Shown: in pieces, positions 15,636 to 60,241 of the stretch
Numbering within the stretch: position 1 is the stretch's first letter
Layout of the letters: each line of letters begins with the position of its first letter
Assembly (NCBI RefSeq): GCF_000172975.1
Contig: NZ_ABTR02000001.1
Coordinates: 1,030,501-1,094,500, forward strand
Origin: Dethiosulfovibrio peptidovorans DSM 11002
Lineage (GTDB): Bacteria > Synergistota > Synergistia > Synergistales > Dethiosulfovibrionaceae
Length of the DNA: 64,000 nt
Reading direction: 5' to 3'
Notes under the pieces: generated by a model
The model's input: only the letters and a program-made list of their open reading frames with translations
Databases searched by the model: none
What the model was told of the DNA's origin: nothing
Position numbers and translations under genes: made by a program

Positions 15636-16637
15636 ATGACTTGGAAAATAGCGTCTAAAACAGGGGAAATACTGAAAAAGGGCTCGGACGGCTCGGGAAT
15701 CGATAGGGACGAGGCTCTTTATCTGATGGCTCTTCCCTTGAGATCCAAGGATACCTATGCCTTGATGGAAGCGGCCGATACCCTTTCCAGGGATACCTTC
15801 GGCAACAAGGGGGAGAATCACTTTCACATAGGTCTGAACGTGGCTCCCTGTCCTCTCAATTGCAGTTTCTGCTCTCTGACCGTGAAGGCCGGAATCTTCA
15901 AGGAATCTATAGATTTCTCCGACGATCAGATTCTTGAGTGGGCGAGACACGGTGAATCCCGCAAAGCCGATTCATTGAATCTCATGACCACCGGGAGCTT
16001 TCCCATGGAACGGCTCCTCCACGTAGGCAGGCTCCTTCGGGACAACGTCGACGTTCCCCTGGTGGCCAACACCAGAGACATAACCCACGAGGAGGGAGAG
16101 GCCCTTCTGGAGGCCGGTTTCGTAGGGGCGTATCACGCGGTGCGGCTAGGTGAGGGCAGAGATACCCCTCTAAAAAGGGATAAGAGAATCGAGACTATCA
16201 AGGTCCTCAAAGACGTGGGGCTGAGATGGATGAACTGCGTAGAGCCTGTGGGACCGGAGCACGAGGCGGAGGAGATAGTCGATCTTATGTTTCTGGCGAG
16301 AAAATACGAGGCCACCTACAGCGGAGTAATGAGGAGGGTCAACTTCCCCGGTTCTCCCATGGAAAAATACGGCATGATAACCGAGAGGGAGATGTCCAGG
16401 ATGGTGGCGGTGTCCCGTCTGGTGATGGGAACCGTGCCGAAGGCCCACTGCACCCACGAGCCCAACTCCCTTTCTCTGATAGCAGGGGGCAATCTCCTCT
16501 TTCCCGAGGTGGGGTCCAGCCCCAGAGACGGGGAGGCCGACACGGGCAAGGGAAGGGGAAACACCGTCGAGAACTGCGCTCGTATCCACATGGAGACCGG
16601 ATGGGATCCGACCAGAAAATCGAACTGTTTCGCCTAA
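15636..16637 (+). CDS. Radical SAM enzyme, biotin-synthase-like
   Basis: A 333-residue protein with the radical SAM cluster motif C72-x3-C76-x2-C79 (CPLNCSFC) followed by a BioB-like barrel: NLMTTGSFPMERLL, VPLVANTRDITHEEGEALLEAGF and GAYHAVRLGEGRDTPL. A C-terminal AHCTHEPN segment and a final SNCFA tail carry further Cys and His residues. The sequence lacks several features of true biotin synthase, and no other biotin genes are nearby. Members of this BioB-like branch include methyltransferase-like and sulfur-inserting enzymes, so the reaction is open. It lies 43 bases after the Fe-S gene and before a structured intergenic element. Confidence 0.85.
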   Translation: MTWKIASKTGEILKKGSDGSGIDRDEALYLMALPLRSKDTYALMEAADTLSRDTFGNKGENHFHIGLNVAPCPLNCSFCSLTVKAGIFKESIDFSDDQILEWARHGESRKADSLNLMTTGSFPMERLLHVGRLLRDNVDVPLVANTRDITHEEGEALLEAGFVGAYHAVRLGEGRDTPLKRDKRIETIKVLKDVGLRWMNCVEPVGPEHEAEEIVDLMFLARKYEATYSGVMRRVNFPGSPMEKYGMITEREMSRMVAVSRLVMGTVPKAHCTHEPNSLSLIAGGNLLFPEVGSSPRDGEADTGKGRGNTVENCARIHMETGWDPTRKSNCFA

Positions 16638-16645
16638 AGAGCATA

Positions 16646-16880
16646 TCTAAAAACGCTACTCCTCGGAGAGGCCGTTTCGTCGTAGCCCGTTCGAGCTCGT
16701 ATTTCCGAATCTGCCGTCGTGTAGTACCGATGGGGCGACAGGACGTCGCCCCAAGCCGAGGGGGCACAGGACGTGCCCTCCGAGGCGGTCGGTGCGAAAC
16801 AGGCAGATCGGAAATACGTTTGGGCGAGACAGGGCGGAGACGAAACGGCCTCTCCGAGGAAACTCGGACGTGAGTTTTTG
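16646..16880. repeat. Large nested palindrome with two GGA-loop hairpins
   Basis: The gap between the radical SAM and importer genes is almost entirely self-complementary. A perfect 22-bp outer stem (16660-16681 with 16839-16860) encloses a 17-bp stem with one bulge (16698-16715 with 16802-16818). Inside lie two tandem hairpins, 16732-16752 (GGGGCGA/TCGCCCC) and 16758-16780 (GAGGG-GCAC/GTGCCCTC). Both loops display AGGA(C). Flanking TCTAAAAAC and GTTTTTGAGA extend the outer pairing. Either a structured RNA or a palindromic intergenic repeat family would give this picture; it is not a simple terminator. Confidence 0.8.
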
Positions 16881-16903
16881 AGATACCGAAAGGACGTGTC
16901 GAG

Positions 16904-17839
16904 ATGAGGAAGCTAGTTTTTTCGATTCTTCTGTTTCTCTGTTTCGCGGCTGCCTCTTCCGCGAAGGAGGCCGTAAGGGTCGGGACCTGGAAAACCGCTC
17001 AGACCATACAGCCTTTTTTCTACGGCGATTACGCCTCCGAAGACGTGGAGGTCCTCTCCTTCACCAATCCGGCCGATCAGAAGACGGCTCTTCTGGCGGG
17101 AAGTCTCGGCATGTGCGGCACCACCATCGCTCACGCCATACACTCCGCCTCCATGGGGCAGCCGGTCGTTTTGGTAGCATCTCTCTGCAACAGGTGCTCC
17201 GCCCTGGTTGTAGGAAAGGACGGCCCCATAGAGAAGATCTCCCAGCTCAGAGGTAAAAGGATAGGTTACGTCCCCGGGACGATGCACGAGATACTGTTGC
17301 GAGAGGCCCTGACCCGTAACGGCCTGTCCCCGGAGAAGGACGTCAGCCTGGTCAGGATAGACTTCTTCGACATGGGAACCGCCCTAGCCCGAGGAAGTAT
17401 AGACGCTTTTCTGTCCGGAGAGCCCTTCCCCACCCTCGCCGTGGCCGATGGATACGGCCGTGTACTGTCCTATCCCTATTACGACGACAGCGTGGGGACC
17501 ATAAACGCCGGGATGTTGGTCACGGAGAGGCTCATAGAGGAAGATCCCGACATGGTGATGGACCTGGTGAGGGCTCATGTCAGGGCCACCGAGTTTTTAA
17601 GGTCCAATCCCGACGTATGGCTGAAAAAAACGGTCTCCTTCGGAACGAAAAAGGAGATACTGGAGAAGGCTTCGGCCAACATAGAACTTGCCTGGGACAT
17701 GGACGACGCCTTCGTGAAGAGGGTCAAGGCACTCGGCGCCAGGATGGAGGAGCTTCACGTAATAGACCGCCAGCCCGACTACGAAAGGCTTTTCGACCTC
17801 TCCTTCGTTCGCAGGGTCAAGGAGGAGATGGGGTTTTGA
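16904..17839 (+). CDS. ABC importer substrate-binding protein, NMT1/SsuA type
   Basis: A 311-residue protein. The signal peptide (about residues 1-20, FAAASSAKEA) and VRVGTWKTAQTIQPFFYGD lead into a type-II periplasmic binding fold. LLAGSLGMCGTTIAHAI and LRGKRIGYVPGTMHEILLREAL are the NMT1/THI5-like and SsuA/TauA segments. Three unusual cysteines occur at GMCG and LCNRC. The permease and ATPase genes overlap it, making a complete importer. The family carries sulfonates, pyrimidines or nitrate; here the sulfur neighbourhood favours a sulfur or metalloid compound, but that is inference. Confidence 0.85.
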   Translation: MRKLVFSILLFLCFAAASSAKEAVRVGTWKTAQTIQPFFYGDYASEDVEVLSFTNPADQKTALLAGSLGMCGTTIAHAIHSASMGQPVVLVASLCNRCSALVVGKDGPIEKISQLRGKRIGYVPGTMHEILLREALTRNGLSPEKDVSLVRIDFFDMGTALARGSIDAFLSGEPFPTLAVADGYGRVLSYPYYDDSVGTINAGMLVTERLIEEDPDMVMDLVRAHVRATEFLRSNPDVWLKKTVSFGTKKEILEKASANIELAWDMDDAFVKRVKALGARMEELHVIDRQPDYERLFDLSFVRRVKEEMGF

Positions 17840-58943: not shown

Positions 58944-60241
58944 GGGCATCTCTAAAAACTCCCCTAACTGGCAGGGAGAAAAACCCCTGTTTAGGCTGGG
59001 ATGTTAAAATACCGGTTGTAACCAAAAATTCTCGAGAAGGGATGGGATCCCCTTGAAACAGCGGAGCCTCTTTGCGGAAGAAATAGCCTACGATAGCCTT
59101 GAAAAGGTGAACGATCCACTGGTACGAATAGAGAAAGCGGTGGACTGGTCCATCTTCGAGCAGCCGTTGAAGGACTTCCGCGAAGGGCTCAGACAGAAGG
59201 ATTCTCTGGGAGGAAGAAAGCCCTTCCCTCCTCTTCTCATGTTCAAGATCCTGGTGCTTCAGGCACTGTACAACCTGTCGGACGACGCAATGGAGTTTCA
59301 GGTAAGGGACAGGCTTTCCTTCAGACGTTTTCTCGGCCTCTCCCTGGAAGCCAAAGTCCCTGATGCCAAGACTATATGGCTTTTTCGGGAGCAGCTGACC
59401 AAGGCGGAACTGATGAAGCCTCTGTTCGATCTTTTTGACGGTCACATCCGTAAAAGCGGCTTCGAGGCAAAAAAAGGGCAGATAGTGGATGCCTCCATAG
59501 TGAAGGTCCCGATCCAGAGGAACAAACGGGATGAAAACCGCAAGATCAAGGATGGAGAACCACCGGAAGACTGGCCCGACAACAAGAGATCTCAAAAAGA
59601 CACCGATGCCAGGTGGACGAAGAAAAACGGCAAAAGCTCCTTCGGCTACAAGAACCACATAGAGATCGACTCTCAGAACAAGATCATCCGTAAATACAGC
59701 GTAACCGAGGCATCGGTCCACGACAGCAATGTATTCGAGGAACTCATCGATCCCAGTAACAGCAGCAAAGACGTCTATGCCGACTCAGCTTATAGAAGCC
59801 ATGAGAAAATCTCTTGGCTTGAGGAACAAGGCTACAGACCGAAGATCCAACGAAAAGGATACAGAGGCAAACCCATCACGTGGTGGGAAAAACAGGGTAA
59901 CAGAACAAGATCCAAAGTCCGAAGCCGAGTGGAGCACGTCTTTGGAGCCCAAACCATGAAGGCCGGCAACCTGATAGTTCGAACTATCGGGAAAGCCAGA
60001 GCTTCAACCGCTATAGGACTGAGAAACCTGGCCTATAACATCGTTCGATTCTCGTTCCTGATGATGAAGTCAGGGGCGATATCTGCCGTGCCCAAATGAC
60101 GGTAAAAGCCGAGTTGTTCAGGTCACCGGAGCGACAATAGAGAATCATCTTAACGCTGATTTAGCCTAATTTGTCGCTGTTTCTGGTCTGTGGCTTTTTT
60201 GTCTGCTCAGACCGCTAAATATGGGGTTGCTAGAGGTGCCC
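58944..60241 (+). mobile_element. IS5-family insertion sequence, complete
   Basis: A 1298-bp element. The left end begins GGGCATCTCTAAAAAC and the right end, read inwards, GGGCACCTCTAGCAAC: imperfect terminal inverted repeats of about 18 bases. ATAT is present on both sides (58940-58943 and 60242-60245), a 4-bp target duplication. The transposase gene occupies most of the length. All parts needed for transposition appear intact. Confidence 0.92.
59053..60099 (+). CDS. IS5-family transposase
   Basis: A 348-residue DDE transposase. LLMFKILVLQALYNLSDDAME and RDRLSFRRFLGLSLE are the family N-terminal domain; QIVDASIVKVPIQ carries the first Asp, DVYADSAYRS the second and SRVEHVFG the Glu within the Y-(2)-R-(3)-E type region. 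TTG 59053 starts it with GAAGGGATGGG upstream. The frame is undamaged, so the element may still be mobile. Confidence 0.93.
   Translation: MKQRSLFAEEIAYDSLEKVNDPLVRIEKAVDWSIFEQPLKDFREGLRQKDSLGGRKPFPPLLMFKILVLQALYNLSDDAMEFQVRDRLSFRRFLGLSLEAKVPDAKTIWLFREQLTKAELMKPLFDLFDGHIRKSGFEAKKGQIVDASIVKVPIQRNKRDENRKIKDGEPPEDWPDNKRSQKDTDARWTKKNGKSSFGYKNHIEIDSQNKIIRKYSVTEASVHDSNVFEELIDPSNSSKDVYADSAYRSHEKISWLEEQGYRPKIQRKGYRGKPITWWEKQGNRTRSKVRSRVEHVFGAQTMKAGNLIVRTIGKARASTAIGLRNLAYNIVRFSFLMMKSGAISAVPK

Follow-up and report, generated by a model that had tools for sequence, protein, structure and literature searches.

The palindrome that lies between a radical SAM-like gene and an importer gene in the 64,000-nucleotide stretch of Dethiosulfovibrio peptidovorans DSM 11002 analysed here (the window) is one copy of a non-autonomous MITE of about 250 bp, and the twin-hairpin centre of this MITE is kept almost unchanged while the remainder of the element diverges. 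Judged from its sequence, the RNA of this centre would probably bind CsrA at paired sites. The explanation that we favour, and hold to be moderately probable, is that the MITE carries a CsrA-binding cargo and that its dispersed copies serve as decoys which lower free CsrA. MITEs, the TwoAYGGAY RNA and CsrA sponges are each already known separately; no report of their combination, MITEs carrying CsrA sites, was found in the literature searched (open-licence papers only).

The palindrome is present at 16646-16880, the extent of about 235 bases given in an earlier description made without database searches (the sequence-only reading), and terminal inverted repeats widen the unit beyond these limits to about 16639-16888 (Table 1). 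Its minimum free energy of -151.2 kcal/mol compares with -97.8 +/- 5.3 kcal/mol for shuffled sequences (z = -10.1, with 0 of 200 shuffles as low), and sequence and fold agree with the perfect 22-bp outer stem and the two inner hairpins with AGGAC loops that had been described; the 17-bp middle stem is likewise present, with one bulged A. The unit begins 1 base past the stop codon (TAA) with which the radical SAM gene ends, and the importer reading frame starts at 16904, at the distance of 24 bases past 16880 that had been noted.

Table 1. Coordinates of the MITE copy, its parts, its neighbours and related features. Positions are those of the window except in the last row.
Feature	Position	Strand	Remarks
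Whole MITE copy	16639..16888	+ (strand with GGA in the hairpin loops)	about 250 bp
Left terminal inverted repeat	16639..16655	+	GAGCATATCTAAAAACG in the window copy; family form GGGCAYCTCTAAAAAC
Right terminal inverted repeat	16872..16888	-	degenerate in the window copy
Outer stem, left arm	16660..16681	+	22 bp, perfect
Outer stem, right arm	16839..16860	+	22 bp, perfect; covariation support
Middle stem, left arm	16698..16715	+	17 bp, one bulged A; covariation support
Middle stem, right arm	16802..16818	+	17 bp; covariation support
Hairpin 1	16732..16752	+	loop AGGAC 16740-16744, motif CAGGACG; fold and conservation
Hairpin 2	16760..16781 (about)	+	loop AGGAC 16768-16772, motif CAGGACG; fold and conservation
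Rfam RF01731 TwoAYGGAY match	16683..16832	+	49.9 bits, cut-off 43
Radical SAM-like gene	15636..16637	+	upstream context, outside the element
NMT1/SsuA-like substrate-binding protein of importer	16904..17839	+	context
IS5-family insertion sequence	58944..60241	+	1298 bp; shares one MITE end; 4-bp target duplication ATAT
IS5-family transposase	59053..60099	+	348 aa, TTG start (from ORF list); NF033581, 281 bits, cut-off 140
Core-less units, contig G000:C1	591155-591204, 660086-660165, 1440813-1440929, 1705683-1705740, 2551840-2551889

A nucleotide search of the same genome with 16640-16905 as the query returned about 23 near-full copies at 74-100% identity, the window copy included, together with end fragments, and the genome holds 10 matches to RF01731, 9 of them over the cut-off. 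The element occurs in 7/7 genomes of the genus, with tens of matches in each, and none of the 118 copies that we located in five sets lies inside a called gene. The sequence-only reading had offered a repeat family as one possibility, to be recognised by many intergenic copies; such copies were found, so that the repeat reading was right and a single-copy regulator of the importer is ruled out. One or both GGA hairpins are missing from 5 of the 23 copies in the own genome, and four copies read in genome G107 are decayed, one loop being reversed, with GGA retained in about 3/4 of the first and 3/4 of the second hairpins. Also seen in the own genome are tiny core-less units (about 50-120 bp) that consist of the two MITE ends. 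Six of the own-genome copies (L017, L018, L021, L025, L027 and L032) have the core in the opposite orientation with respect to their two ends, which are unequal, as though the inner palindrome were inverting within the element.

Copies are bounded by GGGCAYCTCTAAAAAC and its complement, an end pattern with 78 genome matches at up to 3 mismatches as compared with 8 for a reversed control. Both ends are present in 96 of the 118 located copies, and the 4-bp flanks of these are identical in 42/96 (2/96 in a control comparison) and agree at 3 or 4 of 4 bases in 77/96 (control, 5/96); in the window copy, by eye, 3 of 4 bases of the target duplication agree. The window also contains an IS5-family insertion sequence of 1298 bp (1300 in one copy) that has the GGGCATCTCTAAAAACT end in common with the MITE, and 8 of 8 examined insertion sequence copies with this end have 4-bp duplications. 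From the shared end and the equal length of the duplications we infer that this IS5-family element is probably the mobiliser of the MITE in trans. In being short and non-coding, with terminal inverted repeats, 4-bp duplications, many intergenic copies and a partner insertion sequence in the genome, the MITE resembles known IS5-derived MITEs; what sets it apart is an interior that carries two CsrA-like hairpins and is more strongly conserved than the ends.

Insertion takes place at A+T-rich 4-bp targets, most commonly TAAA and TTAA, and often at stop codons. Within 10 bp of gene 3' ends there are 50 element ends, and no element end comes that close to a gene 5' end; this distribution, along with a T-run in the terminal repeat and one terminator-like site, would suit a MITE-borne bidirectional transcription terminator or stabiliser of 3' ends. 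We consider such a function improbable: TAAA and TTAA targets can overlap stop codons, which may account for the position of the ends, the single terminator-like site compares with 0.5 expected in shuffles, convergent contexts (29) are not clearly commoner than divergent ones (24), and the conserved loops would be left unexplained.

Specific control of the importer operon, another proposal of the sequence-only reading, would be in keeping with the position of the element just upstream of the importer start, and the element is or was in the radical SAM-importer gap in 5/5 genomes compared, all of which have a close importer homologue. The gap in genome G108 holds the element as in the window, but in G106 there is only a scar of about 48 bp made of two MITE ends, and the differing flanks of the element in G111 and G109 suggest that this clade acquired it by a second insertion; in G109 it is also inverted, placing the GGA strand antisense to the operon. 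The same element moreover stands beside many unrelated genes. A cis-acting controller of the importer operon is thus very improbable, an importer-specific regulator is rejected on account of the scar and the inversion at the orthologous loci, and the window copy has no demonstrated special role for the operon. As a separate matter, the leader at 16888-16903, CCGAAAGGA(C/T)GTG, which comes just ahead of the importer start, hardly differs among the five genomes, unlike the remainder of the gap, and the GGA at its ribosome site could be a CsrA target itself.

Strand relative to genes was counted over the 118 copies, using gene calls from a hexamer model trained on the window, of which single calls may be wrong, and including orthologous sites in related genomes, which are not independent, and no significant bias was found. 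The upstream gene runs in the GGA sense in 64 of 110 cases and the downstream gene in 53 of 105, while tandem contexts divide into 27 sense and 18 antisense (p = 0.23); a strand-biased RNA element is therefore rejected. Within the small G106/G108 set alone, upstream genes are in the GGA sense in 7/7 cases (p = 0.016, uncorrected).

Conservation and covariation were assessed on 112 of the 118 located copies, the 6 that run off a contig being dropped. Because the G111 and G109 sets were drawn from the better-scoring of the listed places (40 and 20 of these), intact cores may be over-represented in the figures. In the covariation check, which the sequence-only reading had proposed, 92.8% of alignment cells pair and 39 pairs are changed on both sides (298 cells), as compared with 36-46% paired, 21-31 pairs and 55-80 cells when, as a control, the partners are offset by 1 to 3 columns. 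The pair 16671-16849 is A-T in 72 copies and G-C in 30, and the pair 16703-16813 is A-T in 62 and T-A in 42. In the same alignment, mean identity to the consensus reaches 0.99 across hairpin 1, the spacer and hairpin 2, and falls to 0.88-0.93 in the outer and middle stems and to 0.81-0.83 in the terminal repeats. When the own-genome and G111 consensus sequences are compared, differences fall at 0/50 positions of the core, 4/34 of the terminal repeats and 25/166 of the rest (core against rest, p = 0.0016), and core differences are 0 in all ten pairs of sets while those elsewhere reach 29/166.

Constraint on the core after insertion, as measured by private changes, is found in the G109 set (p = 0.01, under the selection of places described above) and in the 9-copy G106/G108 set (p = 0.03), and is non-significant in the own genome (p = 0.30) and in G111 (p = 0.08); the p value of the STD2_11 set is disregarded, as its copies were retrieved by a core pattern and the set is biased. 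Within single genomes the core is not clearly poorer in private changes, and so it seems to be the lineages which go on transposing, more than the individual insertions, that are under constraint. This pattern, the lack of strand bias and the covariation, which can arise from RNA function or from hairpin-templated DNA repair, would all suit the main rival to a CsrA cargo, namely a DNA-level role in which the transposase or a host DNA protein reads the hairpins in an extruded form (cruciform or single-stranded DNA), or hairpin-templated repair keeps them, their CsrA likeness being accidental. We judge this rival to be unlikely, though far from negligible. Against it stand the loops, which repair does not template and which are among the most conserved bases of the element, and the behaviour of a second repeat family that is described below.

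The likeness of the core to CsrA-binding RNA begins with RF01731 (TwoAYGGAY), a family of clan CL00106 that Rfam classes as Cis-reg. The window copy exceeds the gathering cut-off across the whole model and shares the outer stem and two GGA-loop hairpins of that family, but here the match forms the interior of a MITE present in many copies, and the AGGAC loops are one base short of AYGGAY. AYGGAY hexaloops are absent from both hairpins, the RF01731 alignment being gapped at the Y position in each, so that we have a scoring match with a variant loop and not a textbook TwoAYGGAY member. According to excerpts from one survey, TwoAYGGAY and Bacillaceae-1 were predicted to bind CsrA from motifs alone (PMC4333381), and no test of that prediction was found in the literature searched.

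Both loops, read as CAGGACG, agree with the CsrB repeat CAGGA(U/A/C)G, and the two GGAs are 28 nt apart, within the range of 10-63 nt (best above 18) over which CsrA bridges sites, as both are given in excerpts from PMC7652899. In the same excerpts RsmE binds ANGGAN hexaloops, and most CsrA SELEX hairpins have four or fewer pairs and mostly 6-nt loops, in comparison with which the core hairpins, with stems of 8-9 bp and 5-nt loops, are more stable than most (PMC7652899). CsrA-sequestering sRNAs such as CsrB and RsmZ likewise present CAGGA(U/A/C)G in hairpin loops as paired sites (excerpts from PMC7652899); unlike them, the MITE has two clear sites per copy, copies that are dispersed, and no own promoter seen, as a search of 16500-17000 for a sigma-70-like promoter found none. 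A stand-alone CsrB-like sRNA gene, which would account for the RF01731 match and the CAGGACG loops, is scarcely credible given this promoter result, the multi-copy unit with its terminal repeats and target duplications, and a start 1 base after a stop codon.

The check for csrA suggested in the sequence-only reading found one csrA in the genome (PF02599, 75.7 bits, cut-off 27). At L009 994-1749 this gene comes directly after a fliW-like ORF, which we take to be fliW from its sequence and place. The resemblance to CsrA/Rsm-binding hairpins that had been pointed out therefore holds as a resemblance of sequence, in the RF01731 match within CL00106, the exact CAGGACG loops, the presence of csrA and the conservation of the core. 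Among 185 genomes, csrA is present in 11/11 that are RF01731-positive as compared with 116/185 overall (hypergeometric p = 0.005), a co-occurrence that we count as weak because only four genera are involved. A laxer search of 19 genomes added G110, which is csrA-positive and has 24 matches; in that search the element was found in 0/10 genomes without a csrA match over the cut-off (G027, G028, G030, G112-G118) and was also missing from five csrA-positive genomes (G107, G019, G020, G031 and G032).

In the mechanism that we propose, the IS5-family transposase would move the MITE in trans, the transcript of a neighbouring gene would run through a copy that lies in the right orientation, one CsrA dimer would bridge the two GGA loops of the transcribed core, and the dispersed copies would titrate CsrA as decoys. 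We count against a CsrA cargo that no sigma-70-like promoter was found near the window copy, the non-significant core constraint in the own genome and in G111, stems and loops unlike those of most SELEX hairpins, and a co-occurrence resting on four genera. The lack of strand bias also speaks against it, since in about half of the copies transcription would cover the wrong strand.

Repeats with GGA hairpins are found elsewhere. A different element occurs in genus g10 of the same order, where genomes G025, G026 and G029 have 46, 29 and 59 nucleotide matches to it; it has ends CCTAAATCCGCAG and, by eye, apparent 5-bp target duplications in several copies; G027 and G028 of this genus are without a csrA match and without the element. 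Variation in the g10 hairpins is almost confined to two positions of ANGGAY, the N, where all four bases occur, and the Y, and GGA is intact in 44/44 GGA-strand rows of hairpin 1, whose 87 rows hold both strands because it is nearly self-complementary, and in 47/48 of hairpin 2; the scan tolerated 5 or 6 mismatches, so that copies in a more advanced state of decay would escape it. Some g10 elements have the two hairpins apart or carry extra arms, and a few are without both and retain their ends. This modular loss of hairpins and the variation nearly confined to N and Y stand against a DNA-level role and point to recognition of GGA by a protein, a role that CsrA would fit, though this is no proof. 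A further g10 element (L269, G025:C1:179200-180000) has a head-to-tail array of a hairpin module of about 46 nt in place of the GGA hairpins.

A third repeat family occurs in G154, where long terminal repeats (ATGACTATCCAATTGTCTC...) surround a GACATGGATGTC / AUGGAU hairpin (L286, L292 and L302), with 48 pattern matches as compared with 1 in a control. Across 185 genomes the single-hairpin pattern GACANGGAYGTC distinguished genomes with csrA from those without it only in the strongest multi-copy cases, G025, G026, G029 and G154, all of which are csrA-positive; the pattern also matches coding-like sequence (G153 loci). The twin-hairpin pattern was found in 36 stretches, 22 of them in Dethiosulfovibrio sp. 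STD2_11 and the other 14 in Bacillaceae, Paenibacillus and one gammaproteobacterial MAG. All 12 of the firmicute loci match RF01690 (Bacillaceae-1), often in several copies, but their sequence is other than that of the MITE, and where RF01690 matches overlap the pattern they lie on the strand opposite to GGA, so that the Rfam strand may be the wrong one. Multi-copy opposite-strand RF01690 matches are seen at L074, L082, L084, L101, L105 and other firmicute loci, and in the gammaproteobacterial MAG the twin hairpin lies inside longer low-order repeats (L072 and L100).

A broader reading, which we put forward tentatively and at somewhat short of an even chance, is that several unrelated non-autonomous repeat families have independently taken up paired CsrA-binding hairpins and keep them under selection as a mobile CsrA sponge, and that part of TwoAYGGAY and Bacillaceae-1 in Rfam consists of such elements and not of ordinary sRNA genes or leaders. 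Its basis is at least two Synergistota families with clear ends and target duplications, the third family in G154, and the similar repeats in Bacillaceae and the gammaproteobacterial MAG.

If the cargo binds CsrA, transposition would spread the binding sites of a global RNA regulator around the genome, and a CsrA sponge would exist in bacteria where the protein FliW would be the expected antagonist. Part of two orphan Rfam families would then be recast as mobile elements, and the positions at which CsrA CLIP signal should appear would be predicted. Even without CsrA, it needs explaining why the interior of a MITE should be more conserved than the ends that the transposase recognises.
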